In this document: positions 21,592 to 40,704 of the stretch, one piece after another
How the letters are laid out: each line of letters begins with the position of its first letter
Numbering within the stretch: position 1 is the stretch's first letter
Source of the DNA: Rhodococcus pseudokoreensis
GTDB lineage: Bacteria > Actinomycetota > Actinomycetes > Mycobacteriales > Mycobacteriaceae
Direction: 5' to 3'
Assembly: GCF_017068395.1 (NCBI RefSeq)
Contig: NZ_CP070619.1
Location: 3,038,001 to 3,102,000 of the forward strand
Length of the DNA stretch: 64,000 bases
Notes under the pieces: generated by a model
Database searches by the model: none
What the model saw: only the letters and a program-made list of their open reading frames with translations
What the model was told of the DNA's origin: nothing
Position numbers and translations under genes: made by a program

Positions 21592-22244
21592 TCTGGCCAC
21601 CACCCACCCCACCGTCGGTCCCGCCGTTTCACACGCCCTGGCAGCCGGACCCCCGGCTTCCGGCCGCACCGATGCCCGTCACGTCCGTCGGCTCTGCCGG
21701 TGGTCCCGACTGGCTGGCCGAGCGGCTGTTCGACAAACGGATCGTCTCGCTCACCGGCCGGCTCGACGCGGAGGCCGTGAACCGTGCGACGGCGTCGCTG
21801 GCACTGCTCGACGCGTCCGGCGACGACGAGGTCCAGCTGTGGCTGCAGGGCGTCGACGCCGACGTCGACGCGACCACCACGCTCCTCGACACCCTCGACC
21901 TGATGGGCGTCCCGCTGCACGTGCACTGCCGCGGCGACGTCCGCGGAACGGCGATCGCCCTCCTCGCGCCTGCCGACCGGCGGACGGCGGCGGCGCACAC
22001 CACGTTCCACCTCCGCGAACCGCGGACGTCCTGCACCGGTCCGGCGTCGGACGTCGCCATCGCCGCGGAACAGCACGAGCAGCAGTTGCGCAGACTCCAG
22101 CAGCGGATCGCCGACTCCTGCCGGCGTCCCGTCGACACGGTGATCGCAGATATGAGGGACCACCGGATCCTCACCGCCGACGAGGCCCGCGACTACGGGC
22201 TGATCGACACGATCACCGGCCCGCGCTCCGTCGACGGCGACTGA
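21588..22244 (+). CDS. ClpP-like protein without the catalytic Ser-His pair
   Basis: This 218-residue protein has a proline-rich N-terminal tail (residues 1-40) and a crotonase/ClpP fold from about residue 45 (ERLFDKRIVSLTGRLD). Aligning by eye on the ClpP active-site helix, the nucleophile Ser position is G120 (GDVRGTAIALL), and the His of the IHQP motif is R143 (HLREP). It is therefore probably a non-peptidase relative that may assemble into rings. It is translationally coupled to the XRE gene. Function unknown. Confidence 0.7.
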   Translation: MIWPPPTPPSVPPFHTPWQPDPRLPAAPMPVTSVGSAGGPDWLAERLFDKRIVSLTGRLDAEAVNRATASLALLDASGDDEVQLWLQGVDADVDATTTLLDTLDLMGVPLHVHCRGDVRGTAIALLAPADRRTAAAHTTFHLREPRTSCTGPASDVAIAAEQHEQQLRRLQQRIADSCRRPVDTVIADMRDHRILTADEARDYGLIDTITGPRSVDGD

Positions 22245-22390
22245 TCCGGCAGCCGCTCACCTATTCGGCTCACGCACACTTTTTCGGCCGCAATTTCGGG
22301 TGCGCGAACCGAGAAAGAGTGCACCTGTTCGGGCCGGGCCGCGCACACAGGCTCTTGCGCCCCGCACCTCGGCGGGGGAATCATCCGAGG

Positions 22391-24697
22391 ATGACGGTCG
22401 AACGATCGCGCATCACGGTCCACGGGGTCGTGCAGGGTGTCGGTTTCCGCCCGTTCGTCGCGCGACTCGCCGGTGACCTGGGGCTGCACGGCCATTGCGG
22501 CAATGACGACGTCAGCGTGTTCATCGAGATCGAGGGCAAGTCCGCGTCGGTGTCGGAGTTCGTGCGCCGGCTCCGCACGGACGCGCCGCCGATGGCGGTG
22601 ATCGTCGACGCGAAGGTCCAGCCGGTGCCGGTGCGGGGGGACGAGTCGTTCCGGATCATCGACAGCCGGCACGTCCCCGGCGCGCGGACGCTGGTGTCGC
22701 CGGACGTGGCGACGTGCGCGGATTGTCTTCGCGAACTGGCGGATCCCCGCGATCGCCGGTACCGGCATCCGTTCGTCAACTGCACCAACTGCGGGCCGCG
22801 GTTCACGGTGATCACCGACCTTCCCTACGACCGGCCGAACACCACGATGGCCGAGTTCCCGCTGTGCGCGGCGTGCCTGGCGGAGTACCGCGACCCGGCG
22901 GATCGCCGGTTCCACGCGCAGCCGGTGTGCTGCCCCGACTGCGGTCCGCACCTGTTCGCCGAGATCGACGGTCGCCGGGTGGACGGGGACGACGCCGTCC
23001 TCACCGCGCTGCAGGGGGCGTTGCGCGGCGGCCGGATCGTGGCGGTCAAGGGCCTCGGCGGGTTCCACCTCGTGTGCGACGCCGCCGACGCGTCCGCCGT
23101 GGCGACCCTCCGGGCGCGCAAGCACCGCCCGGACAAGCCGTTCGCGGTGATGACCGCGGACCTGTCCGTGGCCGCCGAACTGTGCGAGATCTCCGAATCC
23201 GAAAGCGCGCTGCTGCGCCATGCGGCCCGCCCGATCCTGTTGCTGCGCAAGCGGAATACGGCCACGATTGCCGACGGTATCGCGCCCGGGATCGACGACC
23301 TCGGGGTGATGCTGCCGTACACCCCGCTGCACCACCTGCTCTTCACCCCGACGCCCGGCAGCGACGTCGCCCCTCCGCGGGTGCTGGTCATGACGTCGGG
23401 CAACCTGAGCGGCGAACCGCTGTGTTTCGACAACGACGACGCCCGTACCCGGCTGCGGGGCATCGCCGACGCGTTCCTGTTCCACGACCGCCGGATCGCG
23501 GTGCCCTGCGAGGATTCCGTGCTGGCGGTGGCGGACGGGGCGGTGCTGCCGATCCGGCGGTCGCGCGGGTTCGCGCCGCTGCCGGTGGTGCTGCCCGCGC
23601 AGGGCCCGGAGATCCTGGCCGTGGGCGCGGAGATCAAGAACACCTTCTGCCTGACCCGCCAGGACTACGCGTTCTGTTCGGCCCACCTCGGGGACATGGG
23701 CAGCCTGGAGAGTCAACGCGCGTTCGAGACGTCGGTGCGGCAACTGACGCATCTGCACGGCATCACCCCGGAGGCCGTGGTCGCCGACCGGCACCCCGGC
23801 TATTCGACGCACCACTGGGCTCGGCGCTACAGCGACAGCACCGGCGTCCCGCTGCTCACCGTGCAGCACCACCACGCGCACGTCGCGTCGCTGATGGCCG
23901 AACACGGACTGGTCGGGACGACGGTGCTCGGTGTCGCATTCGACGGGACCGGGTACGGATGCGACACCACCGTGTGGGGCGGCGAACTCCTCCTCGTCGG
24001 CCCGGACGTCCTCGACTCGCGGCGGGTCGGGCACGTGCAGCCGTTCTCGCTGCCGGGCGGCGACGCAGCCGTCCGGAATCCAGTACGGGTGGCACTGGCG
24101 CTGCTGCACGAGTGCGGCATCGGCGACGTCGACGGACTGCCCTGCGTGGCGGCGATCCCGGCCGCGGAACGCGCGGCGGTGAAGTCGCAACTCGTCTCGG
24201 GTGTCGGGTGCATCCGGACGACGAGCGCGGGCCGCCTGTTCGACGGCGTCGCGTCGCTGCTCGGGGTCCGGCACCGGGTCACGTACGAGGCGCAGGCCGC
24301 CATCGAACTCGAGGCGCTCGCCCGGACCGCCCCGCACCCCGCGCTCCTGACCATGGCGGTGGAGAACGACCAGCTCACACTGCCTCTCCTGGTGTCCGGC
24401 ATTGTCGCCGGGCTGCGCGACGGGACCCCGCCCGCGGCGCTCGCGCTCGGCTTCCACCATGCCCTCGCGGCCGCGACGGCGGACCTCGTCGACCGGGCCG
24501 CCACCGCGACCGGTGCGTCGACGATCGGGCTGACCGGAGGAGTCTTTCAAAACCGTTTATTCCTCGCACTGGTGAGAGCACACTGGGAGAGCAGCGGTTA
24601 TCGAGTCCTCACCCACCACCGGGTGCCTCCCAACGACGGAGGACTCTCCCTCGGCCAGGCGGTGATCGGTGCCGCGGCGACCATGCGCGGACCGTGA
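22391..24697 (+). CDS. hypF: Carbamoyltransferase HypF
   Basis: The 768-residue protein starts the hyp operon. It makes the cyanide ligands of the NiFe site by transferring a carbamoyl group from carbamoyl phosphate to the C-terminal cysteine of HypE. Domains in order: acylphosphatase (HGVVQGVGFRPFVARLA, residues 8-24), two zinc fingers (CADCLRELADP and CTNCGPRF then CAACLAEY and CCPDCGPH), a YrdC-like domain (RKHRPDKPFAVM), and a Kae1-like domain with VQHHHAHVASLMAEHG. The 146-bp upstream region contains an imperfect GCACACTTTTT / AAAGAGTGC pairing but no clear operator. Confidence 0.97.
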   Translation: MTVERSRITVHGVVQGVGFRPFVARLAGDLGLHGHCGNDDVSVFIEIEGKSASVSEFVRRLRTDAPPMAVIVDAKVQPVPVRGDESFRIIDSRHVPGARTLVSPDVATCADCLRELADPRDRRYRHPFVNCTNCGPRFTVITDLPYDRPNTTMAEFPLCAACLAEYRDPADRRFHAQPVCCPDCGPHLFAEIDGRRVDGDDAVLTALQGALRGGRIVAVKGLGGFHLVCDAADASAVATLRARKHRPDKPFAVMTADLSVAAELCEISESESALLRHAARPILLLRKRNTATIADGIAPGIDDLGVMLPYTPLHHLLFTPTPGSDVAPPRVLVMTSGNLSGEPLCFDNDDARTRLRGIADAFLFHDRRIAVPCEDSVLAVADGAVLPIRRSRGFAPLPVVLPAQGPEILAVGAEIKNTFCLTRQDYAFCSAHLGDMGSLESQRAFETSVRQLTHLHGITPEAVVADRHPGYSTHHWARRYSDSTGVPLLTVQHHHAHVASLMAEHGLVGTTVLGVAFDGTGYGCDTTVWGGELLLVGPDVLDSRRVGHVQPFSLPGGDAAVRNPVRVALALLHECGIGDVDGLPCVAAIPAAERAAVKSQLVSGVGCIRTTSAGRLFDGVASLLGVRHRVTYEAQAAIELEALARTAPHPALLTMAVENDQLTLPLLVSGIVAGLRDGTPPAALALGFHHALAAATADLVDRAATATGASTIGLTGGVFQNRLFLALVRAHWESSGYRVLTHHRVPPNDGGLSLGQAVIGAAATMRGP

Positions 24698-24741: not shown

Positions 24742-25491
24742 ATGACCACCACCGCAGAGGCGGGCGGGCACCTCGTCGACACGGACCTGTCGGCTGATCT
24801 CGCCGCCGCGGCATTGTCGCTCGCCCGCAAATTCCATGACGGCGCGACGCTCTGGGTGATCTCACCGCAGTGGGAACCGCACGCCCATCACGTCGCCGTC
24901 GAATTCGTCCATCCCGTGATCATGGGCAAACGGGCGCTGCCGTCGGTGGCCCTCGTCGAACCCGATCCGGTGGCGCAGGCCCGGGTGGCGAGCAGGCCCG
25001 GCGACATCCTGCTGGCGGTGGCGTCGGCGAACGAACCCGCCGTGGTCGACGCCATGCGCCGCGCACCGGCGTGGGGGGCGATGACGCTGTGGATCGGGGC
25101 GGGCCCGCGGCCACCGGCCGGCGCGGCGAACCACATCCTGTGGGTCGACTCGGACGACCCGATGGTCCCGGCCACCGGACGTTTCGTCCTCATGTACCAC
25201 CTGCTGTGGGAACTCACGCACGTCTGCTTCGAGCACTCGGGACTGCTGAAGCCCGACGCCGAGGAGTGCGACGAGACGGTCTGTGTCACGTGCAGCGACG
25301 AGGGCCGTCTCGGTGAGGTGATCATCGAACCCGCCGAACCCCTCGGCCCCGCCCTGGTCCGCACGGCCGCCGGCGAAGAGTGGGTCGACGTCAGCGTCCT
25401 CGGCGACGTCCGGCCGAACGACCTCGTCCTGGTGCACGCAGGTGCCGCGATCACCCGACTCGACGACCCGGGCCAGGAGGCGAACCGATGA
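24742..25491 (+). CDS. Two-domain protein with HypC-like C terminus
   Basis: I do not know a name for this 249-residue protein. Residues 1-170 look like an alpha/beta domain, loosely SIS-like (ARKFHDGATLWVISPQ and PGDILLAVASANEPAVVDA). Residues 181-242 (CVTCSDEGRLGEVI through DLVLVHAGAAITRLDD) match the HypC pattern: an initial Cys, a small barrel, and the VHAGxAI ending. C181 takes the place of the N-terminal Cys of HypC that carries the Fe(CN)2CO unit. It lies between hypF and the SIS gene and overlaps the latter by 4 bp. A role as an extra chaperone or carrier in iron-ligand assembly is inference. Confidence 0.7.
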   Translation: MTTTAEAGGHLVDTDLSADLAAAALSLARKFHDGATLWVISPQWEPHAHHVAVEFVHPVIMGKRALPSVALVEPDPVAQARVASRPGDILLAVASANEPAVVDAMRRAPAWGAMTLWIGAGPRPPAGAANHILWVDSDDPMVPATGRFVLMYHLLWELTHVCFEHSGLLKPDAEECDETVCVTCSDEGRLGEVIIEPAEPLGPALVRTAAGEEWVDVSVLGDVRPNDLVLVHAGAAITRLDDPGQEANR

Positions 25492-26180
25492 CGACGCACG
25501 ACTCGGAAAGCACCAGCTTCCTCTACCCGTTCATCGACTCGGAGGAAACCGACGCCCAGAGTCTCCTCGACGACCTCGCCGCCTCCGCCCGCGGGAAGGC
25601 CGCCGAGAGCGCGCGCCTGCAGAAGGAGTCCCTCGACGAGTACGGGGACGGCCTCACGGCGGCCGGGATCGACATGGCGGACCGGTTCCTCCGCGGCGGC
25701 CGCCTCTACACGTTCGGCAACGGCGGCAGTTCCACCGACGCCGCCACGCTGGCCTCCCTGTTCAGCCGCCCCGCCCGAGGACGGCCGGTGGCGGCGTGGT
25801 CGCTGGCCGCCGATCAGGCCGTGGTGACGGCGCTGGGCAACGACGTCGGCTTCGACCTGATCTTCAAACGGCAGATCATCGCCTACGCCGGGGAACGAGA
25901 CGTCGCGATCGCGCTGTCGACGTCGGGCAACTCCGACGACCTGATGACCGCGCTCACCGAGGCGAAGCAGCGGGAGCTGCTGACCATCGGGTTCGCCGGG
26001 CACGAAGGCGGCCGGATGGCGGCGATGGCGACCGCAGGCGAACTCGACTTCTGCTACACCGTCCATTCGCAGAGCATCCACCGGATCCAGGAGAGCCACG
26101 CGATGCTCGGGTACCGGCTGTGGTCGGTGGCCCAGGAACACATGTCGCGGCCCGCTCCGAATTCTGTGGAGGCTTCATGA
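25488..26180 (+). CDS. GmhA-like SIS-domain protein in hyp operon
   Basis: The 230-residue protein has a sugar-isomerase (SIS) domain with the phosphate-binding motif FGNGGSSTDAATLASLF and a second loop IALSTSGNSDDLM. It is most like sedoheptulose-7-phosphate isomerase GmhA. No lipopolysaccharide heptose genes are near, and it overlaps both neighbours (4 bp each side), locking it into the hydrogenase maturation operon. Such genes occur in other actinobacterial hyp loci to my knowledge, with no established role. It may handle a small-molecule precursor or pair with the preceding SIS-like protein. Confidence 0.8.
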   Translation: MTTHDSESTSFLYPFIDSEETDAQSLLDDLAASARGKAAESARLQKESLDEYGDGLTAAGIDMADRFLRGGRLYTFGNGGSSTDAATLASLFSRPARGRPVAAWSLAADQAVVTALGNDVGFDLIFKRQIIAYAGERDVAIALSTSGNSDDLMTALTEAKQRELLTIGFAGHEGGRMAAMATAGELDFCYTVHSQSIHRIQESHAMLGYRLWSVAQEHMSRPAPNSVEAS

Positions 26181-27277
26181 GCACGACCGAACCGGCCACG
26201 GCGTCGGAACGCGAAGACCGGGTGCTGGAGCGGATCGACAAGTTCCGGCAGCGCCGTCCGCGACTGCTGGACGAGGTGGTGACGCTCGCGCACGGCGCCG
26301 GCGGAAAGTCGTCGGCCGCGCTCGTCGACGCGGTGTTCGTGGAGGCGTTCCGCAACGAGGAACTCGAGCAACTCGGTGACGCCGCCGCGCTCACCATGCC
26401 CTCGGGTGAGCGGCTCGCGTTCTCCACCGACTCGTACGTGGTTCAGCCGCTGCGGTTTCCCGGCGGTTCCATCGGGCATCTCGCGGTGCACGGGACCGTC
26501 AACGATCTCGCCGTGTCCGGTGCCCGCCCCAAGTGGTTGTCGGCGGCGTTCGTCATCGAGGAGGGTTTCCCGATCGCCGAACTGCGGGAGATCGTCGCCG
26601 ACATGAGCGAGGCGGCCGTCCTGTCCGGGGTGCAGATCGTCACCGGCGACACCAAGGTCGTCGGCAAGGGCGCCGCCGACGGCGTCTACATCTCCACCGC
26701 CGGCGTCGGTGTCATCCCGGAGGGCAGGCGGCTGTCGCCCGACCTCGTGCGCGCGGGCGACAAGGTGCTGCTGTCGGGCACCATCGGCGCACACGGGATG
26801 GCCGTGATGCTCGCCCGCGGCGACCTGGCCATCGAGGCCGACATCGCCTCCGACACGGCGCCCGTCAATTCCCTGGTGGAGACGCTGCTGGAGGCGGCAC
26901 CGTCGACGCGGTGGATGCGGGACGCCACCCGCGGCGGCGTCGGCACCGTGTGCAACGAACTGGCCCACGCCTCACAACTCGCCGTCATCATCGATGAGCA
27001 GTCGCTGCCCATCGAGCCTCAGGTTCTCGGTGCCTGCGACATGCTCGGCATCGACCCGCTGTACGTCGCGAACGAGGGCAAGTTCGTCGCCATCGTCGCG
27101 GCGGACGAGGCGGACGCGGCCGTTGCGGCGCTGCGGGCCCACCCGCGGGGAGCCAACGCGACCGCGGTGGGCGAGATCCTGGCCGAACCGCCGGGCATCG
27201 TCGCACTGCGCACCTCGTTCGGCGGCAGCCGGATCGTCGACATGCTCGTCGGCGACCCGCTCCCCCGAATCTGCTGA
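26177..27277 (+). CDS. hypE: HypE, thiocarbamate-forming maturation protein
   Basis: The 366-residue protein belongs to the PurM-like ATPase family. It dehydrates the carbamoyl group received from HypF to a thiocyanate on its own C-terminal cysteine, then hands it to the HypCD complex. The start of the conserved region is LAHGAGGKSSAALVD, and the C terminus ends in the expected Pro-Arg-Ile-Cys. It overlaps the SIS gene by 4 bp and is followed 26 bp later by hypC. Confidence 0.97.
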   Translation: MSTTEPATASEREDRVLERIDKFRQRRPRLLDEVVTLAHGAGGKSSAALVDAVFVEAFRNEELEQLGDAAALTMPSGERLAFSTDSYVVQPLRFPGGSIGHLAVHGTVNDLAVSGARPKWLSAAFVIEEGFPIAELREIVADMSEAAVLSGVQIVTGDTKVVGKGAADGVYISTAGVGVIPEGRRLSPDLVRAGDKVLLSGTIGAHGMAVMLARGDLAIEADIASDTAPVNSLVETLLEAAPSTRWMRDATRGGVGTVCNELAHASQLAVIIDEQSLPIEPQVLGACDMLGIDPLYVANEGKFVAIVAADEADAAVAALRAHPRGANATAVGEILAEPPGIVALRTSFGGSRIVDMLVGDPLPRIC

Positions 27278-27303
27278 AGAACAGCCCGAGAAGGAGAACC
27301 ACG

Positions 27304-27576
27304 ATGTGTCTGGGGATACCCGGTCAGGTGGTCGACATCGTCGACGCCGAACAGCATCTGGCCAAGGTGGACGTGAACGGCGTCCAGAGAACGATCAGTG
27401 TGCGACTGCTCGCCGAAGAAGGTCTCGTCGTCGGTGACTGGGTGCTCGTGCACGTCGGCTTCGCGATGGCGAAGATCGACGAGATCGAGGCGCAGCTGAC
27501 GTTGGATCAGGTGCAGAAGATGGGCGCCGACTACGTGAACGAGATCGACGCGTTCAACTCGTCCGAAATCGCGTGA
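27304..27576 (+). CDS. hypC: HypC maturation chaperone (copy 1)
   Basis: The 90-residue protein begins Met-Cys-Leu-Gly-Ile-Pro-Gly; Cys2 binds the Fe(CN)2CO unit made with HypD and carries it to the large subunit. The beta-barrel and the ending GDWVLVHVGFAMAKIDEIEA are typical, and length is standard. It sits between hypE and hypD, 25 bp from the latter, with a GAGAA-type site. A second copy lies at the end of the structural operon. Confidence 0.96.
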   Translation: MCLGIPGQVVDIVDAEQHLAKVDVNGVQRTISVRLLAEEGLVVGDWVLVHVGFAMAKIDEIEAQLTLDQVQKMGADYVNEIDAFNSSEIA

Positions 27577-27601
27577 CAACAGCAAGAACGAGGTAACAGG
27601 G

Positions 27602-28729
27602 ATGAAGTTCGTCGACGAATTCCGGGACCCGGCGGCGGCGCGCGCCCTGGTCAAATCCATCACCGAACTGGCCCGCGGTGACGAGTTCAAGTTCATGGAG
27701 GTGTGCGGCGGGCACACCCACACCATCTACCGGCACGGCATCGAACACCTGCTTCCGGAGTCCGTGGAGTTGGTGCACGGCCCCGGATGTCCGGTGTGCG
27801 TCATCCCGATGGGCCGCGTCGACGACGCCATGTGGCTGGCCGAGCAACCCGGTGTCATCTTCACGACGTTCGGCGACATGATGCGGGTGCCCGGATCGAA
27901 GGGCAACCTCATCGAGGCGAAGGCCCGCGGCGCGGACGTGCGCTTCGTGTACTCGCCGCTGGACGCGCTGAAGGTGGCCCTCGACAACCCCGACCACCAG
28001 GTGGTGTTCTTCGCCGTCGGGTTCGAGACCACCGCGCCGTCCACCGCGGTGACCCTGGTGCGCGCGCGGGCGCTGGGCGTGACGAACTTCAGCGTGTTCT
28101 GCAACCACGTCACGATCGTTCCGCCGATCAAGGCGATCCTCGAATCCCCCGACCTGCGATTGTCCGGTTTCCTCGGCCCGGGCCACGTGTCCACCGTGGT
28201 GGGGCTGCGGCCGTACCGGTTCGTGTCCGAGGTGTACGGGAAACCGATGGTCGTCGCGGGCTTCGAGCCGCTCGACATCCTCGCGTCGGTGCACATGCTG
28301 CTCCAGCAGATTCGTGAGGGCCGCTGCGAGATCGAGAACCAGTACAAGCGGGTCGTCCGCGCAGAGGGCAACGTGCAGGCACTGAAGCTGATGGCCGAGA
28401 CGTTCGAATTGCGCCCGCACTTCGAATGGCGCGGACTCGGTTTCATCTCGCAGAGCGCGCTCAAGGTCCACCGGAACTACGCCGAGTTCGACGCCGAGGA
28501 GAAGTTCTCGATGCCGGGTGTGCGCGTCGCGGATCCGAAGGCCTGCCAGTGCGGTGAGGTCCTCAAGGGCGTCATCAAGCCCTGGGAATGCAAGGTGTTC
28601 GGGACGGCGTGCACCCCGGAGACCCCGATCGGCACATGCATGGTCTCCCCCGAAGGTGCGTGCGCCGCGTACTACAACTTCGGCAGGCTGCACCGCGAGA
28701 CGGCCCAATTGCTCGGTCAGCGAGGCTGA
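27602..28729 (+). CDS. hypD: HypD, scaffold for Fe(CN)2CO assembly
   Basis: The 375-residue protein has the signature motifs MEVCGGHTHTIYRHG, GPGCPVCV, and the CPVC and C-terminal cysteines (KACQCGEVLKGVIKPWECKVFGTACTPETPIG) that hold the [4Fe-4S] cluster. It binds HypC and is the site where iron receives CN and CO. The gene is followed after 3 bp by the next ORF, so the operon continues. Confidence 0.97.
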   Translation: MKFVDEFRDPAAARALVKSITELARGDEFKFMEVCGGHTHTIYRHGIEHLLPESVELVHGPGCPVCVIPMGRVDDAMWLAEQPGVIFTTFGDMMRVPGSKGNLIEAKARGADVRFVYSPLDALKVALDNPDHQVVFFAVGFETTAPSTAVTLVRARALGVTNFSVFCNHVTIVPPIKAILESPDLRLSGFLGPGHVSTVVGLRPYRFVSEVYGKPMVVAGFEPLDILASVHMLLQQIREGRCEIENQYKRVVRAEGNVQALKLMAETFELRPHFEWRGLGFISQSALKVHRNYAEFDAEEKFSMPGVRVADPKACQCGEVLKGVIKPWECKVFGTACTPETPIGTCMVSPEGACAAYYNFGRLHRETAQLLGQRG

Positions 28730-28732
28730 CCG

Positions 28733-29545
28733 GTGACGGCGCGCGAACACCCGATGCCGTCCGGGCACCGCGTGTTCGCGCAGTACGCGCACGCCCCGAA
28801 TGCCCTGGGCTACTGCGGCCCTCCCGGTTCGGAGCGACTACAGGCTGTCGCGTGCGGCGGCGCGCCGGACACCGATGTGGTGGCGATGGCGAGGCAGTTC
28901 AGCGGCGCGTGGCCGTACCAGGAGGTGATCGCCCGGCTCGCCGGAATCGCGGACCCGTTGGACGAGAGGGTTGTCCGGGGGTACTGGATCGCGGACGAAC
29001 TCTCCGACCGCATCGACCGGGCCGAGTTCGGCGACGCGCTGCTGTCCCGCCTCGCGTCGCAGGCCGGCCACTACTGGAAGCACCTCACCGCGGACCTGCT
29101 CGGGGAGGCGGCACCCACCCACAACTTCCACGTGTTCGGGGTGTACCCGTGGTCTCGGCTGCTGGACACCGGAATGCCGCAGCCGCTTCAGGTTCTCGAC
29201 TCCTGCCGCATCCGCTGGGGTGAGGTGGTGGGCGTCGACGCCGATCGCGCACTCGTCCGGTCCCGTCGCCTGTCGTGGGACGGGACGCGGCTGTCGCTCG
29301 GGCCCGAGCAGGACGACCCCGCCGACTACCGCGTGCCCGAGGGAACTTTCGTACACGATCTCGCGGTCGGCGACCGGGTAGCGGTGCACTGGGATTTCGT
29401 GTGCGACCGCCTCGACCTGGACCAGGTCGAGCGGTTGGCTCGGCAGACGGAATGGCAACTTGCACAGACCAATCAGCGCCTCACCGGGGAGGTGCCCACC
29501 CCTTCACCGAAACAGACCGACGCGAACGTTTCCCGGTTACCATGA
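28733..29545 (+). CDS. DUF6390-like protein with HypC-like C terminus
   Basis: The 270-residue protein closes the hyp operon. The N-terminal part (QYAHAPNALGYCGPPGSE, residues 17-34) is typical of a family found in actinobacterial hydrogenase loci that I recall as DUF6390; its function is unknown. From about residue 157 (SCRIRWGEVVGVDADRALV through GDRVAVHWDFVCDRLDLDQ) it resembles a stretched HypC barrel, with C158 in place of the carrier cysteine. HypC proteins end GDWVLVHVGFAMAKID, which aligns well. A role in metal-centre maturation is inferred. A GTG at 28733 or an ATG at 28754 could be the start. Confidence 0.7.
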   Translation: MTAREHPMPSGHRVFAQYAHAPNALGYCGPPGSERLQAVACGGAPDTDVVAMARQFSGAWPYQEVIARLAGIADPLDERVVRGYWIADELSDRIDRAEFGDALLSRLASQAGHYWKHLTADLLGEAAPTHNFHVFGVYPWSRLLDTGMPQPLQVLDSCRIRWGEVVGVDADRALVRSRRLSWDGTRLSLGPEQDDPADYRVPEGTFVHDLAVGDRVAVHWDFVCDRLDLDQVERLARQTEWQLAQTNQRLTGEVPTPSPKQTDANVSRLP

Positions 29546-29580
29546 CAACAACTCACGGCCTGCGGCCGGATCGGAGCGAC

Positions 29581-30081
29581 ATGAAGAAGATTCTCAATTC
29601 CCTGTCCGAGGACGAGTACGTGCTGATCCGCGAAACGAAGAAATCGCAGATGTCCGGTCTCGACGAAGACAGACTGATCAAGCTGCACACCCGCGTCCGA
29701 CGGGCCCGCAACAAGCACGTCAAGCTGTACCGGCAGGAAGGCGCGGCGAAGGTCGCGGACAAGGGCGCACGTGGGGCCGGTAAAGCGGCCAACGTCCGCA
29801 ACGCAGACAAGGCGGAAGCCTTCGAAGCCGCACTCAGCCGGGTGAGCAGGCAACTGGCGACCGCGGCACGCGTGAGCGCCCGCGAACTGAAAGACGAACG
29901 CCTCGCCCGCGCCCGCAGCGACTCGCCGTCGTTCAGCGAACTCGGCGACAGCGACGGCAAGGTCGGCTCCTCCGGCAAGGCCCGCGTCGACGCCACCCGG
30001 AAATCATCCGGCCGCAAGAAATTCGAAGCCTCCACCATCGCCGAGGGCGCACGCAAACAAGCGAAGAAGGACAAGCGGTAA
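29581..30081 (+). CDS. Lysine/arginine-rich helical protein, function unknown
   Basis: This 166-residue protein is strongly basic and predicted mostly helical, starting MKKILNSLSEDEYVLIRETKK and ending KKFEASTIAEGARKQAKKDKR. It has no membrane segment. I recognise no enzyme domain; the composition is that of a nucleic-acid-binding or histone-like protein. I chose the ATG at 29581 with GGAG upstream; an ATG at 29542 that overlaps the previous stop by 4 bp is also in frame and would add 13 residues. Same strand as the hyp operon but without an obvious link to it. Confidence 0.65.
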   Translation: MKKILNSLSEDEYVLIRETKKSQMSGLDEDRLIKLHTRVRRARNKHVKLYRQEGAAKVADKGARGAGKAANVRNADKAEAFEAALSRVSRQLATAARVSARELKDERLARARSDSPSFSELGDSDGKVGSSGKARVDATRKSSGRKKFEASTIAEGARKQAKKDKR

Positions 30082-30106
30082 GCCTCGATGCGACGATGGA
30101 TCGATC

Positions 30107-30682
30107 ATGCCTGACATCATCGAGTTGATTTTCGACGACCACGAGTGGTTCCGGCGACAGTTCGCCGCACTGGACGAATTGAAGTCTCGGCGCCGGGTGG
30201 AGATCACGGCCGTGGAGGCGGTGTGGACGCCGCTGGCGAAACGCCTGGATCTGCATGCTGCGGCGGAGGAGGAAATCTTCTATCCCCAGCTTCTCCGCGT
30301 CGGCGAGGACGATGAGGCCGAGGCGGAGACCCTCGACGCGATCGGGGACCACAACGACATCCGCGACGGCGTCCGAGCGGCGGCGGGGAACCCCATCCTG
30401 TCCGAGGAGTGGTGGGCGGCAGTCGGCCGGACGCGCCGGGCCAACGACGAGCACATGGCCGAGGAGGAACGGGAGGGCCTGGCCGATTTCCGGACCGCCC
30501 CGGATGACCTTCGCGAGTCGCTCGGGCGGCGGTTCGCCGAATACTTCCTCGTGCACCGAACCCTGTCGGAGGTGGACACCTCGGACAAGGACCCGAAGGA
30601 GTACGTCCGCGAGATCGAAGACGACCTCGACGAGGACGACAACCCTGGATCGCTGCGAATCGGCAGCTTGAAGGGCCGGTAG
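30107..30682 (+). CDS. Hemerythrin (HHE) domain protein
   Basis: The 191-residue protein has an HHE cation-binding four-helix domain: DDHEWFRRQF near residue 11, LHAAAEEEIFYPQL near residue 49, DHNDIR near residue 81 and DEHMAEEE near residue 113 supply the usual His/Glu ligands for a di-iron site. The last 40 residues are acidic. Bacterial HHE proteins respond to oxygen, NO or iron; a role near an oxygen-exposed hydrogenase is possible but not shown. It starts 25 bp after the basic protein and is followed by the gblA operator. Confidence 0.85.
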   Translation: MPDIIELIFDDHEWFRRQFAALDELKSRRRVEITAVEAVWTPLAKRLDLHAAAEEEIFYPQLLRVGEDDEAEAETLDAIGDHNDIRDGVRAAAGNPILSEEWWAAVGRTRRANDEHMAEEEREGLADFRTAPDDLRESLGRRFAEYFLVHRTLSEVDTSDKDPKEYVREIEDDLDEDDNPGSLRIGSLKGR

Positions 30683-30697
30683 CAACACTCCCCACAT

Positions 30698-30717
30698 CAC
30701 AGACCGCGCGGTCTGTG
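30698..30717. promoter_or_regulatory. ARE-like operator upstream of gblA
   Basis: A perfect 20-bp palindrome with the core ACAGACCGCGCGGTCTGT lies 59 bp before the gblA GTG. ACCG-NN-CGGT is the core expected for autoregulatory elements bound by gamma-butyrolactone receptors of Streptomyces. The GblR repressor encoded by the convergent gene is the likely binder. Confidence 0.8.
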
Positions 30718-30776
30718 TTCTATAGTTCGGGCGGTCCGCGGCATCGGGCCGGCCGGTTCTGTGGGGAGATGGGGTT

Positions 30777-31727
30777 GTGGCGCGAATTTCCCGTCCGGTG
30801 CCCGATGCCCTTCCTCCGATGTCGTTCGAGCGGACCGTGCCCCGCAGGTACGTGCACCGGCAATCCGTGGCCGAGGTCTTCCTCACCGACTGCGTCTCGC
30901 TGCCGGTGCCGGATCGGTTCGTCGTCGCCGCGCAGTGGCCCCGCCTGCACGGCTTCTACCGCACCCGAGACGGGCACTACGACTCCATGCTGCTGGCGGA
31001 AACGCTCCGGCAGACCGCCATCTACCTGGGACACACCCGCTTCTCCGTCCCGCTGCCGAACCGGTTCGTCATGCAGCACCTCGAGGTGCATGCGGTGCCC
31101 GGCGCGCTGGCGGTGGGTGCGGCGGCAGCGGATGTCGTCGTCGAGGTCACCGTGTCCGAGCACGTGTACCGCGGCGGCGCGCTGTCCGCGTTCCGCGTGG
31201 ACCTGCGGTTCCGGATCGACGGACAGGACGCCGGCACCGCGACGGGTCACGCGGTGGTTTTCCCCCCGGCCGCCTACTCACGCGCCCGCTGGGGTGAGCG
31301 CGGCCCGCGGGCGATCGGTGCGCCGTGGGGTCCCGCTCCCGTCCCGGCTGCACTGGTCGGTCACGTCGACGACGCGCACGTGGTCCTCGGCCCGCGACGC
31401 TCCGAGAACGAGTGGGAGTTGCGGATCGACCACACGCACCCCGTGCTGTTCGACCATCCGTGCGATCACATTCCCGGGATGCTGCTGCTCGAGGCTCTGC
31501 GGCAGGCGGCCTGCGCCGGCCTCGGCCTACCGGACGCGCACCTCGCGTCCCTGGGCGCCACGTTCCACCGTTTCGCCGAACTGGACGAACGGACCACTAT
31601 CCGGCTGGACGCGGTGGACGACGGCGCGCTGTCCGTCACCGGGTCGATACGGCAGGGCGGTGTGGCGGTCGTGCACGGAACCGCGGCGCTCGCACCTACC
31701 GCGGTGGGCGCATGCGCGCGCAGCTAG
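30777..31727 (+). CDS. gblA: AfsA-family gamma-butyrolactone synthase
   Basis: This 316-residue protein has two copies of the A-factor biosynthesis hotdog repeat: residues about 20-155 (KVFLT-type segment VAEVFLTDCVSL) and about 190-310 (PVLFDHPCDHIPGMLLLEALRQAA). AfsA enzymes join a beta-ketoacyl chain to dihydroxyacetone phosphate, the first committed step to a butyrolactone signal. The gbl genes of R. jostii RHA1 have been shown to make such a molecule. The GTG start follows GGGGAG. It is convergent with gblR (4-bp overlap of the ends) and has an ARE-like palindrome upstream. Confidence 0.92.
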   Translation: MARISRPVPDALPPMSFERTVPRRYVHRQSVAEVFLTDCVSLPVPDRFVVAAQWPRLHGFYRTRDGHYDSMLLAETLRQTAIYLGHTRFSVPLPNRFVMQHLEVHAVPGALAVGAAAADVVVEVTVSEHVYRGGALSAFRVDLRFRIDGQDAGTATGHAVVFPPAAYSRARWGERGPRAIGAPWGPAPVPAALVGHVDDAHVVLGPRRSENEWELRIDHTHPVLFDHPCDHIPGMLLLEALRQAACAGLGLPDAHLASLGATFHRFAELDERTTIRLDAVDDGALSVTGSIRQGGVAVVHGTAALAPTAVGACARS

Positions 31728-32371
31728 TCGGCGTCGTCGGGCACCCAGCGGGCCCGCCGGATCCGGGCGATGTCCTGGTGCCGGCTCGCGGGCATGACTC
31801 CGGGGAGCAGGAACCCCCACATGTCGTCGACGCGCTGTTCGAGGTCGGTGCGCTGCGTCAACACCTGGGAGACGGTCTGGACACCGGTGAAGGCGCCGAT
31901 GACGAACCGCGCCAGCCGCGGCGGGTCGATGTCGGCGAGGAGGTCGCCCTGCTCGACGGCCCGGGTGGCGAGCATCTCGCAACTGTTGATCCAGTCGAGG
32001 TAGGGATCCGCGGGGCCCTGATCGTCGGCGCTGAGTTCGAGGGTGATCCGGATACCGGCGCGCACGATCGGGTCGTTCACGATCTGCCGGGCCATTTCGT
32101 GGCACAGCATCACGATCTGCTCGATCGCCGACACCTGCTCACGGCCGATCGCCTCGACCGACGCGATGGAGATCCGGTGTTGCTCACCGATGATGAAGCG
32201 GGCCAGATCCTCTTTCGAACGGAAATGGAAGTACAAGGCCCCCTTTGTGATTCCGGCGTTCTCGACGATGTTGCCGAGTCTGGCTCCTTCGAAACCCGAC
32301 TTCTCGAACATCTCCGCCGCCCCGCGGACGATCTGCTGTCGAGTCGCCGCAGCACGCGCCTGCTGAACCAC
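31724..32371 (-). CDS. gblR: TetR-family gamma-butyrolactone receptor
   Basis: The 215-residue protein has a TetR HTH (FEGARLGNIVENAGITKGALYFHFRSKEDL) very like the ArpA/ScbR receptors, whose length it also shares, and a ligand domain with the conserved GVQTVSQVLTQR region. Receptors of this kind leave DNA when the lactone accumulates. I chose the GTG at 32371, seven bases after AGGGAAAGG. It is divergent from gblE (35 bp between starts) and convergent with gblA, an arrangement that lets one receptor govern both biosynthetic genes. Confidence 0.92.
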   Translation of the reverse strand: MVQQARAAATRQQIVRGAAEMFEKSGFEGARLGNIVENAGITKGALYFHFRSKEDLARFIIGEQHRISIASVEAIGREQVSAIEQIVMLCHEMARQIVNDPIVRAGIRITLELSADDQGPADPYLDWINSCEMLATRAVEQGDLLADIDPPRLARFVIGAFTGVQTVSQVLTQRTDLEQRVDDMWGFLLPGVMPASRHQDIARIRRARWVPDDAD

Positions 32372-32406
32372 GTTCACACCTTTCCCTGCCGCATGAGAGA
32401 AGAACG

Positions 32407-33384
32407 ATGACGATGAAAGCACGGAACACGCGCCCATTGCCCGGAGAGACGGTACCAGCGTCGACCGCGAGCGAGCGTGGTCGAACACCGTCCGCGCCGC
32501 CACGTGTCGCGGTCGTGGGAGCGACGGGCTTCATCGGGTCCGCCACCGTGCGGGCCCTGGCATCGGCCGGGATTGCGTGTACCGCGGTCGCGCGCACACG
32601 CTCGGACCAGGACATTCCGGGTGTCGTGTTCGCGCAGGCGGATCTGACCGATCCTGCAAGTCTCGGCGCGGCACTCACCGGCGCCGACGTCGTGATCCAC
32701 GCCGCGTCGTACACCGGCAGCGACCCGGCGCACTGCACCACGGTGAACGTCGACGGCACCGAGAACCTCCTGGCCGCCGCCGCCCGGAACGGCATCCGCC
32801 GGGTGCTCTACGTCAGCACCATCGGCGTGTACGGCGACGGACCGCACAGCGGAATCGGTGAGTTCGACGCCACGCCGGCACCCGTTTCGGCGCTGAGCGC
32901 GAGCAGGTTGACCGCCGAACACCGCGTCCTCGAATCGGGCGGTTGTGTTGTCCGGCCCGGCTTCGTCCACGGCCCCGGCGACCGCTGGTTCGTCCCCGGA
33001 TTCATCCGGATCCTCGAGACGCTGGGCGCCTGGGTGGACGAGGGGCGGTCCCGGATCTCGGTCGTCGCGGTGGCGGACCTCGCCCGGCTACTCGCGACCC
33101 TCGCCGCGCAAGCCCCGGCACAGTCCGGCGACGTGTTCCACGCCTGCCATCCCGACCCCGTCACCGTCCGCGAGCTCGGCCGGACACTCGCGGACTCCGG
33201 CCGCCTGCGACTGCCGGACAGCTCTCTCACCTTCGACGACGCCGTCACCGCCGGAACCCGGCACGGCCTCACCGAACGGCACCTCGACCTGATAGGCAGC
33301 GACCACTGGTACGACCCCACGCGCCTGCTGACCGCCACCGGCGCGACGTTCGGCCACGGTCCGCTCGACAACCTCCCGGCGTGA
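32407..33384 (+). CDS. gblE: NAD-dependent epimerase/dehydratase-family protein of the gbl cluster
   Basis: The 325-residue protein has a Rossmann start (VAVVGATGFIGSATVRAL, residues about 38-55) and extended-SDR features. At the active site the usual Tyr-x3-Lys appears as S-A-S-R (SALSASRLTAEH), so the classical dyad seems lost or shifted. R. jostii RHA1 has an epimerase-like gblE beside gblA and gblR; a role in reducing or modifying the butyrolactone is assumed. It has its own start only 35 bp from gblR, so the two probably share an operator. The N terminus carries about 35 extra residues. Confidence 0.82.
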   Translation: MTMKARNTRPLPGETVPASTASERGRTPSAPPRVAVVGATGFIGSATVRALASAGIACTAVARTRSDQDIPGVVFAQADLTDPASLGAALTGADVVIHAASYTGSDPAHCTTVNVDGTENLLAAAARNGIRRVLYVSTIGVYGDGPHSGIGEFDATPAPVSALSASRLTAEHRVLESGGCVVRPGFVHGPGDRWFVPGFIRILETLGAWVDEGRSRISVVAVADLARLLATLAAQAPAQSGDVFHACHPDPVTVRELGRTLADSGRLRLPDSSLTFDDAVTAGTRHGLTERHLDLIGSDHWYDPTRLLTATGATFGHGPLDNLPA

Positions 33385-33487
33385 GGAGGTCCGGCAGGAA
33401 GTCGGTGGGCGGAACGTCGTTTGCGGTCCGCGGTCGGGGTGTATACCCGGATAGAGATCGATTTCCCCCACCTGACGGAGTGTCGAG

Positions 33488-34279
33488 ATGGCCCTTCTCG
33501 CCGAGATCGTCGTGGACACCGAAGGCGACAGCCGGATAGTTGTCCTCTATCCCGTGATGTGGCTGTTCATCGCGGTTCTGGTGACGTTCGTGGTCACCCG
33601 GCTCATCACCCGACGCATCCGCTCCCGAGGAGCGGAGCCCGCGGACGACGCCGCGGACTCGGGGGGCGGTCTGATTGGCGACATCACCGTCGGCGGCGTG
33701 CACCTGCACCACCAGGTTTTCGGGATCCTGTTCATGACGCTGGCCGGGCTGGCACTGATCGCGACCACCCCGGAGGGCACGGCACTCAACGTCTTCGCCG
33801 CGCTGTTCGGCGTCGGTCTCGCACTGACCTTCGACGAGTTCGCGCTGTGGGTGCACCTCGACGACGTGTACTGGAGCACCTCCGGACGAAAGTCGGTGGA
33901 CGCGATCTTCTGCGCGCTCATGATCACCGGTCTGATGATCGGGGGCGCCGAACTCGTGAGCGGGCAGATCGGCACCGCCCAATGGTGGACGTCGATCGGC
34001 TATCTGCTCATCTCACTCGGCATCTCGTTGATCTGCCTACTCAAGGGCAAGTTCGTCACGGGAATCGTGGGGATCGTGTTCCAGCCCGTCGCGATCATCG
34101 GCGCGATCCGCCTGGCCAAGCCCGATTCCTGGTGGGCGGTGCGCCGCTACAGCAGCCGGCCGCGCCGGCTGGCCCGCTCCCAGGCACGTTTCGGGGAGCG
34201 TTACCACGCCCGCTGGAATCGGGCGCGCGACTTCGTCGCCGGACCGCCGGACCCCCGTCACGCCGAAACGCAGGGCTAG
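33488..34279 (+). CDS. Integral membrane protein, function unknown
   Basis: The 263-residue protein has about six hydrophobic segments (residues roughly 18-38, 70-95, 98-120, 136-158, 165-186 and 190-212) and a basic C-terminal tail. Notable polar residues within or near membranes are the HLHHQ motif near residue 74 and FDEFALWVHLDDVYW near residue 120, which could bind metal. I do not recognise the family beyond uncharacterised actinobacterial membrane proteins. It converges on hypC copy 2 with a 4-bp overlap of the ends. Confidence 0.75.
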   Translation: MALLAEIVVDTEGDSRIVVLYPVMWLFIAVLVTFVVTRLITRRIRSRGAEPADDAADSGGGLIGDITVGGVHLHHQVFGILFMTLAGLALIATTPEGTALNVFAALFGVGLALTFDEFALWVHLDDVYWSTSGRKSVDAIFCALMITGLMIGGAELVSGQIGTAQWWTSIGYLLISLGISLICLLKGKFVTGIVGIVFQPVAIIGAIRLAKPDSWWAVRRYSSRPRRLARSQARFGERYHARWNRARDFVAGPPDPRHAETQG

Positions 34280-34530
34280 TCTTCGTCCGCCGTCCGCGAG
34301 CGTCCCATCATCTCCAGCCCCGCCATCGCCTTTTCGGCGCCTGCCTCGTCCACCTTCTCCATCGCGAAACCCATGTGGATGACGATCCAGTCGCCCGGTT
34401 CCAGCCTGACGTCCTCGGGCAGCATCCCGACGTTCACCTTGCGCTGTTCGCCGACCACGTCGACGAGCGCGAGTTGGTTGCCGTAGCCCTCCAGCATGCG
34501 CACCACCCGACCGGGAATTCCGAGACACAC
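34276..34530 (-). CDS. hypC: HypC maturation chaperone (copy 2)
   Basis: The 84-residue protein begins Met-Cys-Leu-Gly-Ile-Pro-Gly, so it has the same metal-carrier Cys2 as copy 1, and ends GDWIVIHMGFAMEKVDEAGAE. It is the last gene of the structural operon, 3 bp after the protease gene. Large-subunit-specific HypC chaperones are known where several hydrogenases coexist; this one travels with the structural genes, so it is the better candidate for the dedicated HhyL chaperone. Confidence 0.95.
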   Translation of the reverse strand: MCLGIPGRVVRMLEGYGNQLALVDVVGEQRKVNVGMLPEDVRLEPGDWIVIHMGFAMEKVDEAGAEKAMAGLEMMGRSRTADED

Positions 34531-34533
34531 GAT

Positions 34534-35040
34534 TCAGCCCTCCGTCTTCTCGGGTTGTAGCGTCACTGCGTGGGGCGCCAGAAGTTGATCCACGATTTCG
34601 AAGACGGCGTCGACGGCCGGTGCGACAGCGGCGGCGACGCGCGGTGACAGCCCGATTCCCTCGTCGGTGTTGTCCACCTGGCAGCCCAGCACCACGGCCC
34701 GCGGCAGGGTCCCGCCGAGCGCGCGGAGGCTGGCGAACACCGCACCCGGATCCATGCTGTGCGCGTCGAGCGGCGCCGCGGGCACCGAATCGGGACCCAC
34801 CTCGAACGCCCTCAACGCGCCGGGCTCACCTCGATCGGGAACCGCGTCGACCAGCAGCAACGCACCCCACCCGTCGAGCAGTTCGTACGCCAGATGTGTT
34901 CCACGGATGCCGAAATCGACGGCCCGGACTCCCGGCGGCAGCGGCCTCGTCGCGACACCACGCAGCACCTCGGGACCGAAGCCGTCGTCGCCGAGGAAGA
35001 TGTTGCCCACACCGGCAACCAGCACTCGTCTGTCCGTCAC
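34534..35040 (-). CDS. Hydrogenase maturation endopeptidase (M52)
   Basis: The 168-residue protease removes the C-terminal peptide of the large subunit after nickel insertion. It has the family start VLVAGVGNIFLGDDGFGPEVL with the first Ni ligand Glu, an Asp in LLLVDAVPDRGE and a His in PLDAHSMDPG. The substrate is HhyL, whose tail extends 22 residues past the last conserved histidine. The gene lies between the 39-residue peptide gene and hypC copy 2. Confidence 0.95.
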   Translation of the reverse strand: MTDRRVLVAGVGNIFLGDDGFGPEVLRGVATRPLPPGVRAVDFGIRGTHLAYELLDGWGALLLVDAVPDRGEPGALRAFEVGPDSVPAAPLDAHSMDPGAVFASLRALGGTLPRAVVLGCQVDNTDEGIGLSPRVAAAVAPAVDAVFEIVDQLLAPHAVTLQPEKTEG

Positions 35041-36602: not shown

Positions 36603-37246
36603 GCGATCACCTCCCCGGCTCCCTGCAGCAGGTTTGCGATGGCGACGTCCAGTCCGAGAAGACCGTGCGCCGCCTTGTATTTCGCCAGTGCCGCCAGTGT
36701 GTCGTGGTCGAGGCGCACCCAGCCCGTGTTCGGGTAGTGCGCCTGGACGAGTTCGCGCCACACCGCCACCGGCAGGTCGTACGTCGATTCCCGGTCCCAC
36801 GGAATCCGTTCCACCCCGAACCCGGCGACGCCTCGCGTGAAGACCGTTCCGCTGAACAGGAACACCAGCGGCACCGTCGACCCGGCCTCGTCCAGGGCGT
36901 GCAGGTACTTCGAGGCCGTCACCTCGAAGTCGTAGGTGCACGGCAGCGGCAACTCCACCACGCTCGACCCGGTGAACCCTTGGGCCACGGTGCTGGTCTG
37001 CATCCACTGGAACGGTTTGAGTGTCGACGTCCACCGCTCGCGGGGCCCGAACAGATCGAGCAGACCCTCCACCTCGGTGTCCGTGTAGCGGCGGCGTTGC
37101 GGGTCGATGCGGACCTGGCACCGCACGGCCATCGCGTGCACGACGGCGCCGCTCGACTCCGTCACCTCCACCCGCGCAGTCAGATTCGGCGCAACCGCGA
37201 ACGGCTCCGGGAACACGTCCTCCACACGAAACGACAACTCGGTCAC
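36599..37246 (-). CDS. DUF6084-like hydrogenase-operon protein
   Basis: The 215-residue protein is mostly beta in character at the start (LSFRVEDVFPEPFAVAPNLTARVEVTES) and ends with a helical segment (GWVRLDHDTLAALAKYKAAHGL). I recall it as a domain of unknown function, DUF6084, that accompanies actinobacterial hydrogenases. No metal motif or membrane segment is visible. It begins with GTG, overlapping the upstream gene by 4 bp. Function unknown; structural partner or chaperone is possible. Confidence 0.75.
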   Translation of the reverse strand: MTELSFRVEDVFPEPFAVAPNLTARVEVTESSGAVVHAMAVRCQVRIDPQRRRYTDTEVEGLLDLFGPRERWTSTLKPFQWMQTSTVAQGFTGSSVVELPLPCTYDFEVTASKYLHALDEAGSTVPLVFLFSGTVFTRGVAGFGVERIPWDRESTYDLPVAVWRELVQAHYPNTGWVRLDHDTLAALAKYKAAHGLLGLDVAIANLLQGAGEVIA

Positions 37247-37887
37247 GTCGGCTCCTTCGCGACGCGACTGCGCGCCCGCACGTCGTCGAAGAACGTGTCG
37301 ATCACGCGGCGCGCGTCCTGGCCGCCGTCGAACCCCCGCCACACCTGCCGCAACTCGCCCACCAACTGGTAGCAGGCGTCGATGGGAACGAGGTAGCACT
37401 CGGGGTCACCCTCACCGCGCTCGGGGACCCGCAGCAACAAGGCTTCCGTGTCCGCGGCCAGCTGGCCGAGCGCCGGGTTCACCGCGAGCACACCGTCCCA
37501 GGCGTCGAGGGGCAGTTCCGATTCGGTCGCGCCCGCCGGACCGGGATAGAACGCGACGGTCTTCGCCAGCAGCGAATTCCGGAACACGAACGCGAGCCCG
37601 ACGGGGATCTCCAGTTCGTCCCAGCGTCCGGGTGCGAGTTCGAAGTTCGGAAACGACAGGTAGCGTTCCGGGACGGCCCGGAAGCGCAGTTCGGCGCTCT
37701 CGTCCGTGAACAGCAGGTAGCACCCGCGGCACACACACATCAGTTGCCGGTCCTGCACATTCACGACGTGCTGGTGGGCGTCCGCGATCGGCACGGCGCA
37801 CATGTCGCACCGCTCCCCGACCACAGGTTTGGGCCGCTCGGACGCGATGCGCTGCAGAATGCGCAGCCCGTTCCCCGACGGGCTCAT
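37243..37887 (-). CDS. DUF5947-like cysteine-rich hydrogenase-operon protein
   Basis: The 214-residue protein has a cysteine knot near its N terminus: C27-x2-C30 and C51-x-C53-x2-C56, with two histidines between (AHQHVV). This could bind zinc or an iron-sulfur cluster. The rest has no recognised domain. I recall the family as DUF5947, found with group 1h hydrogenases. The ATG overlaps the last base of the hhyE stop; a GTG three bases earlier is also open. Metal-cluster transfer to the hydrogenase is a reasonable guess. Confidence 0.75.
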   Translation of the reverse strand: MSPSGNGLRILQRIASERPKPVVGERCDMCAVPIADAHQHVVNVQDRQLMCVCRGCYLLFTDESAELRFRAVPERYLSFPNFELAPGRWDELEIPVGLAFVFRNSLLAKTVAFYPGPAGATESELPLDAWDGVLAVNPALGQLAADTEALLLRVPERGEGDPECYLVPIDACYQLVGELRQVWRGFDGGQDARRVIDTFFDDVRARSRVAKEPT

Positions 37888-40647: not shown

Positions 40648-40704
40648 CGACGTACCTCTCAGTGTTCGAGGCCGGCGGACCACCGCCCGAGACCCCGAGC
40701 GGGA

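Follow-up and report, generated by a model that had tools for sequence, protein, structure and literature searches.

We analysed a 64,000-nucleotide window of the Rhodococcus pseudokoreensis genome (contig NZ_CP070619.1, positions 3,038,001 to 3,102,000 of the forward strand; the genome measures 9.87 Mb in six contigs) that carries the structural genes of a NiFe hydrogenase and, beside them, a hyp maturation operon with three unusual members (Table 1). The forward strand reads hypF, P0001, P0006, hypE, hypC1, hypD and P0002, where P0001 joins an SIS domain to a HypC-like barrel, P0006 is a further SIS protein, and P0002 belongs to the DUF6390 family and also ends in a HypC-like barrel. The reverse strand carries the structural genes of what we take to be a group 1h (Hhy) hydrogenase, a label that agrees with the make-up of the operon: hypC2, a protease gene and the genes for a DUF5947 protein, a NifU/Rieske protein, HhyL and HhyS. 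The forward genes are tightly packed, with 4-base overlaps at the P0001/P0006 and P0006/hypE joints and, by the coordinates, 3 bases between hypD and P0002. Two longer frames in the list of open reading frames, 25442-27277 and 25380-26180, were rejected as single long genes; the likely starts are ATG 26177 for hypE and ATG 25488 for P0006. Among the named loci listed, the nearest are those of Rhodococcus wratislaviensis, R. koreensis and R. jostii (97–98% identity for P0001).

Table 1. Features of the hydrogenase locus, in window coordinates (res, residues; aa, amino acids).
Feature	Position	Strand	Remarks
hypF	21530..24697	+	conserved HypF only from about residue 294 of the open reading frame
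P0001	24742..25491	+	SIS domain (res ~14-171) and CxTC HypC-like barrel (res 181-242)
P0001, SIS (GmhA-like) domain	24742..25254	+	metal triad H50, E54, H153 kept; phosphate-binding loops lost
P0001, HypC-like barrel	25282..25467	+	C181-V-T-C184-S-D186 motif; H232
P0006, partner SIS protein	25488..26180	+	230 aa; ATG overlaps P0001 stop; phosphate loops and Gln kept, metal His/Glu/His lost
hypE	26177..27277	+	ATG overlaps P0006 stop
hypC1	27304..27576	+	ordinary HypC
hypD	27602..28729	+	
P0002 (DUF6390)	28733..29545	+	helical N-terminal part and HypC-like barrel; ATG at codon 8 is a possible start
DUF6390 HypC-like barrel and C-terminal helix	29204..29482	+	res 158-250; C158 and H219 invariant
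hypC2	34276..34530	-	ordinary HypC; adjoins the hydrogenase protease gene
Hydrogenase maturation protease	34534..35040	-	HycI family
DUF5947 protein	37243..38115	-	of the group 1h operon
NifU/Rieske-type Fe-S protein	37887..38843	-	likely HhyE-like; name after PMC6883350, correspondence putative
HhyL	38854..40683	-	hydrogenase large subunit
HhyS	40705..41760	-	hydrogenase small subunit

A first-pass annotation, made by eye, had described the two fused barrels of this locus as joined to unknown domains. That description holds for the helical N-terminal part of DUF6390; the N-terminal domain of P0001 could not be kept as unknown, its fold matches and family membership (GmhA, SIS_2) marking it as an SIS fold. 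The same annotation passed over P0006, which scores 50.4 bits against SIS_2 and is the only protein of the genome to match SIS_2 over nearly its full length, two further matches being partial. This neighbouring gene, and the active site that is split between it and P0001, is the more interesting finding.

We compared 109 P0001-type with 109 P0006-type sequences, after removal of near-duplicates, in the residue numbering of E. coli K-12 GmhA (sedoheptulose 7-phosphate isomerase). The metal residues H61, E65 and H180 are each present in 109/109 P0001-types; among P0006-types, H61 and E65 occur in 0/109 each and H180 in 29/109, and the Rhodococcus P0006 itself has T, L and Y at these positions. 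P0006-types in turn keep G51-N-G-G-S55, D58, S119-T-S-G122, S124 and Q172 in 109/109, while P0001-types have S55, T120 and S124 in 0/109 each and Q172 in 22/109. The full GmhA phosphate and metal set is absent from either protein alone: P0001 has only the triad, and P0006 only the phosphate loop and the glutamine. These sequences are not independent, since 79 of the 109 of each type come from 80 loci selected for similarity to P0001 and with peptide patterns. As one of these patterns includes the glutamate, its conservation in those 79 P0001-types is partly the result of selection. The 30 P0001-types from other loci, where no glutamate pattern was applied, keep the two histidines and the glutamate in 30 sequences each and have S55, T120 and S124 in 0/30; the 30 P0006-types from other loci keep S55, T120, S124 and the glutamine in 30/30, with H61 and E65 in none. 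The split is less complete in these 30 loci (Q172 in 22/30 P0001-types, H180 in 27/30 P0006-types) than in the Mycobacteriales-rich set (0/79 and 2/79, respectively).

The two genes also stay together. They adjoin in all 30 SIS loci examined (L020-L049; 30 loci from 38 matching genomes), of which 23 hold both SIS domains in one continuous frame, four hold an SIS-CxTC barrel fusion and three neither. Thermus has a 392-residue SIS tandem with the same division of residues: the first half carries His/Glu/His without the phosphate loop, and the second carries the loop and the glutamine, with Asp at both H61 and E65. In the Cupriavidus, Afipia and Bradyrhizobium hyp operons, which encode a single SIS protein, this protein has all the residues compared (3/3 aligned). 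The one on Cupriavidus necator pHG1 (H16_RS31885) likewise belongs to SIS_2 and is encoded between hypC and hypD; unlike the Rhodococcus pair, it unites all the active-site residues compared in one protein, and no CxTC barrel was found in its stretch or, more generally, in the three proteobacterial stretches with one SIS gene (L238, L240, L242). Compared with GmhA itself (SIS_2, PF13580; structures 2x3y and 5i01), the residues are here distributed over two paralogous genes within hyp operons, one of them barrel-fused.

Literature is cited here by PubMed Central accession. In Neisseria gonorrhoeae GmhA one monomer supplies H61, E65 and H183 as zinc ligands and its neighbour supplies Q175 (PMC5387315); in Burkholderia pseudomallei GmhA a site lies at a three-chain interface (PMC5705639); and a docked model of the Mycobacterium tuberculosis enzyme places the phosphate loop and glutamine on one monomer and the glutamate on another (PMC7705670). 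Because known GmhA ligands come from neighbouring monomers, the split between the two genes follows a natural chain boundary. Together, the complementary residue loss, the adjoining genes and the single-frame fusions argue strongly that P0001 and P0006 would share one GmhA active site as an obligate heteromer. The pair might instead act as a phosphosugar sensor, in the manner of the SIS domains of MurR/RpiR and DiaA, and switch HypC-HypD assembly with carbon supply; we consider this unlikely, as a pure sensor would need neither the triad that all P0001-types keep nor the glutamine that all P0006-types keep.

In the preferred reading, a catalytic SIS heteromer, P0001 also carries a barrel behind its SIS domain. 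The first-pass annotation had proposed four HypC-type barrels at the locus, and these are real: two ordinary HypC proteins and the C-terminal parts of P0001 and P0002, both of HypC type and each with an iron-ligand-like cysteine and a conserved histidine. Against Pfam HupF_HypC (PF01455; cut-off 28.5 bits), hypC1 scores 87.0, hypC2 75.2, P0001 28.6 and P0002 13.1, and a whole-genome Pfam scan returned three HypC matches, every one at the hydrogenase locus. The P0001 barrel thus passes marginally (30.6 bits in the genome scan), its relative P0247 scores 45.5 bits, and the TIGR00074 cut-off is missed (20.1 of 48). In a comparison of hand-picked profiles, 16 CxTC barrels (of 17 pieces) against 11 HypC sequences gave 98.0%, and the best PDB matches of the CxTC barrels are HypC (E 4e-8). 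C181, T183, C184, D186 and H232 are invariant in 70/70 SIS-HypC proteins, hand-picked among 240 matches listed, with H232 being the histidine that follows GDxVxV.

HypC and HybG (PF01455; solved structures 2z1c and 3vyr) share with both fused barrels a G(D/E)xVxVH-type ending, the conserved histidine, a cysteine where the barrel begins and an operon with hypDEF, together with a barrel fold that is modelled for DUF6390 and probable for P0001. They differ in that the fused barrels are internal and lack a Met-Cys N-terminus. C181 and C184 of P0001 are not residue 2 of a free N-terminus as the HypC cysteine is, and stand-alone CxTC relatives, too, have residues ahead of the motif. In P0001, moreover, CxTC replaces the CLGIP start and the C-terminal helix is missing, the model ending past strand 235-240; strands are predicted at residues 189-240, and the fold matches listed for this model are SIS chains, with HypC not among them. 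The P0001 barrel belongs to a distinct HypC-like subfamily whose C-x-[TV]-C-[GS]-D motif stands where HypC has its MCLGIP start. Database names for the SIS-HypC proteins vary ('hydrogenase assembly protein HupF', 'HypC/HybG/HupF family', 'hypothetical', 'SIS domain').

Related loci encode the CxTC barrel as a small gene of its own, which often stands between hypC and hypD, as in Thermus and Sulfobacillus. The subfamily model matches 21 of 30 HypD loci of a phylum sample (L050-L079), and in three more of the 30 genomes the barrel lies outside the stretch: G000 (P0001 itself), G013 (L026) and G092, the last a weak match (E 7e-4, with an internal stop). Six of the 30 have neither barrel nor SIS and two (G141, G163) have the barrel without a detected SIS; the reverse, SIS without the barrel, occurs in 0/30 if the weak G092 match is counted. 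Fusions of SIS to CxTC were seen in two lineages, a Gaiella type, whose proteins are about 32–40% identical to P0001, and Mycobacteriales and their relatives.

This phylum sample comprised 246 evenly drawn genomes, of which 38 have a P0001-like gene, 131 HypD, 135 HypC and 16 DUF6390. HypD is present in 35 of the 38 P0001-like genomes (p 4e-8); two of the remaining three rest on weak matches (G109, G167) and the third is an assembly of 470 contigs (G184). SIS genes occur in 27 of 35 genomes whose large subunit scores at least 289 bits to HhyL, compared with 11 of the 211 others (p 3e-20), the 289-bit threshold having been picked after the list was seen. Eight of the 35 HhyL-like genomes have no SIS, four of them belonging to one family and having a single HypC (G023, G128, G171, G182), so that even among Hhy hydrogenases the SIS/HypC module is not found throughout.

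That the module goes along with Hhy-like and related uptake hydrogenases would also fit a different function, in which the P0001 and DUF6390 barrels protect the Fe(CN)2CO intermediate from O2, as proposed for HupF-HupK. HupF and HoxL, the second HypC proteins of O2-tolerant hydrogenases, are likewise extra family members alongside an ordinary HypC, and at high O2 the C-terminally extended HupF is required (PMC12134894). HupF, however, is extended at its C-terminus, and here the extra domain, SIS or helical, is N-terminal; P0001 has no HupF-type extension, stopping 7 residues after the barrel, and several Hhy genomes do without SIS. We regard O2 protection as unlikely. The existence of such paralogues also makes the starting premise of the first-pass annotation, that one HypC per hydrogenase is the norm, too strong, as HupF, HoxL and HybG are frequent (PMC12134894).

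Among named relatives we kept 80 of at least 553 loci, chosen by similarity to P0001, so that SIS is present by construction; these contain the barrel in 80, the partner in 80, HypE in 77, HypD in 76, HypF in 74 and DUF6390 in 71, and of the nine loci lacking DUF6390, five come from contigs 3.1 to 8.0 kb long. In many mycobacteria the DUF6390 gene lies between hypF and the SIS-HypC gene and not after hypD. The set is widely conserved in Mycobacteriales, yet its parts are not unique to actinobacterial hydrogenases, as had been suggested: in hyp operons of Thermus and Sulfobacillus the CxTC barrel has a gene to itself, and DUF6390 occurs in a Sulfobacillus hydrogenase operon. There, on a plasmid (L248), the DUF6390 relative (33% identity, annotated hypothetical) sits between hypE/tatA-like and hydrogenase subunit genes. 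The Thermus and Sulfobacillus hyp operons (L239, L241) also have a small glutaredoxin-like gene between the tandem SIS and the HypF gene, annotated in Thermus as a Uxx-star (seleno)protein. A Mycolicibacterium agri contig (L153) carries hypC2, the SIS-HypC gene, its partner and hypD, with no match on the contig to hypF, hypE, hypC1 or DUF6390.

P0002 matches DUF6390 (PF19927) over its full length (340.5 bits, cut-off 25). Its barrel falls below the PF01455 cut-off (13.1 of 28.5 bits); profile–profile comparison with HypC gave 90.6–94.6%, and residues 158-249 of the AlphaFold model superpose on all 74 residues of a solved HypC. C158, although internal in DUF6390, falls on HypC residue 2, the iron-ligand cysteine, and the model predicts an OB-type barrel with a C-terminal helix for which HypC is the best fold match. 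C158 and H219, the equivalents of the HypC Cys2 and histidine, are invariant in 36/36 and 70/70 sequences, both sets hand-picked among 120 matches listed and the set of 36 also including 10 loci. As in P0001 the additional part is N-terminal, here a helical one to which the limited comparison made gave neither a family nor a fold. Could this barrel be a generic OB fold without HypC ancestry, its cysteine and histidine coincidental or structural? We find this improbable: of 177,635 PDB sequences the best matches are two HypC entries (E 0.026), C158 coincides with HypC residue 2, and 12 of 16 DUF6390 loci (L004-L019) include a HypC gene within the short stretch compared. A chance resemblance to HypC was rejected as well, the shuffled-profile, reversed and N-terminal controls for DUF6390 failing to reproduce it. 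Among the open-licence papers searched we found none on DUF6390, and the HypC-like barrel gives a first structural reading for the family.

All 16 DUF6390 genomes of the phylum sample have HypC (p 4.4e-5) and a NiFe large subunit. A strict tie of DUF6390 to HypD was rejected (11/16, p 0.30), and DUF6390 occurs in five of seven HypC-positive, HypD-negative genomes as against 11 of 128 (p 2e-4). These five genomes (L128/G008, L129/G025, L130/G134, L131/G157, L132/G177) have a hydrogenase large subunit, HypC and DUF6390 with no HypD or zf-HYPF match; their large subunits have an N-terminal CxxC, with a DPCISCATH motif in four, and their only HypE-like matches lie far under the cut-off. They may reflect assembly gaps, dead hydrogenases or a different route. 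A further genome, of the Rhodococcus family (G150; L019, L140), has only a short HhyS-like frame (119 amino acids) by its hyp operon, and its DUF6390 match covers no more than profile positions 11-51, a picture resembling decay.

The link between GmhA-like genes and hydrogenases has surfaced before. A gmhA gene of Mycobacterium smegmatis (MSMEG_2706, numbered between hypE and hypF) is among the hydrogenase genes raised in stationary phase (PMC5445863), a 2011 network study recorded an association of GmhA with hydrogenase maturation as 'unclear why and how' (PMC3231954), GmhA is listed with maturation proteins in Acidithiobacillus (PMC7735108), and a 2025 neighbourhood study has an SIS cluster in a table only (PMC12727194). 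Among the matches listed from the open-licence literature, we found no description of the split site, the CxTC subfamily or the DUF6390 barrel. That the SIS genes are metabolic passengers for heptose synthesis with no maturation role, and the extra barrels client-specific HypC chaperones comparable to HybG and HupF, accords with the known HypC paralogues (PMC12134894) and with the annotation phosphoheptose isomerase in the M. smegmatis gene list (PMC5445863) but is very improbable, given that neither P0001 nor P0006 has the full GmhA site, that SIS-barrel fusions occur in two lineages, that none of the 30 HypD loci compared has SIS but no CxTC barrel if the weak match of G092 is counted, and that, beyond the phylum, a query with P0247 found SIS genes in 17 plasmid records (one mycobacterial), of which the six opened all have the gene among hydrogenase maturation genes.

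We favour the reading that the split SIS enzyme with its HypC-like barrel, together with DUF6390, forms an addition to the standard Hyp machinery, and put its probability at about 0.72. From the computed domain assignments, the conserved motifs and operons, the complementary losses of residues and the fusions, we propose that P0001 and P0006 most likely assemble into a single hetero-oligomeric SIS enzyme, in which P0001 would give the metal triad (H50, E54, H153) and P0006 the phosphate loops and, across the interface, a glutamine as fourth metal ligand. The CxTC barrel of P0001 may dock this enzyme to the HypC-HypD scaffold, or take over its product or metal. DUF6390 would be a separate two-part protein that probably serves the Fe(CN)2CO group or the apo large subunit in the manner of HypC, as carrier or chaperone. 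The first-pass annotation had already suggested scaffolds or carriers in Fe(CN)2CO assembly; as both barrels are of HypC type with cysteine and histidine and lie in hydrogenase-maturation operons, this is the natural reading, and we infer such a role on those grounds.

Our best guess is a step in which a ligand precursor, or the metal, is made or handled for Fe(CN)2CO. To our knowledge, the making of the CO ligand in aerobes without HypX is an open question. The genome holds seven Formyl_trans_N frames, all of at most 460 codons, and no frame of what we take to be HypX length was found among them (no query with HypX itself was made). The CO ligand is a candidate product, because its source in the absence of HypX is open (PMC12134894) and no formyltransferase-domain frame in the genome exceeds 460 codons. 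HypX, the CO-forming maturase, is likewise an extra, non-universal maturation factor of O2-tolerant hydrogenases, but its domains are formyltransferase and enoyl-CoA hydratase-like (PMC12134894). C. necator, a carrier of HypX (PMC12134894) that also has an SIS gene in a hydrogenase operon, weighs against a simple either-or. A more specific scheme is a very improbable one: the split SIS pair would be a new maturase, a metal-dependent sugar-phosphate enzyme making or releasing a ligand precursor (CO in aerobes without HypX, or an intermediate) that is passed via the CxTC barrel to the HypC-HypD iron, after which DUF6390 carries the finished group, possibly even without HypD, HypE and HypF.

That the residues are shared out over a pair of SIS paralogues, of which one bears a fused HypC-type barrel, makes the unexplained association of GmhA with hydrogenases testable by point mutants. 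Related Hhy hydrogenases consume atmospheric H2 (PMC6883350), and the extra HypC parts and the split isomerase point to an unrecognised step in building the hydrogenase iron centre of trace-H2-oxidising soil actinobacteria.

Two minor observations concern neighbouring genes. The hypF frame is open for about 290 codons ahead of its conserved part, where it is arginine-rich and translation is probably not to be expected. Downstream of the DUF6390 gene, at 30107-30682, the window encodes a hemerythrin-domain protein.

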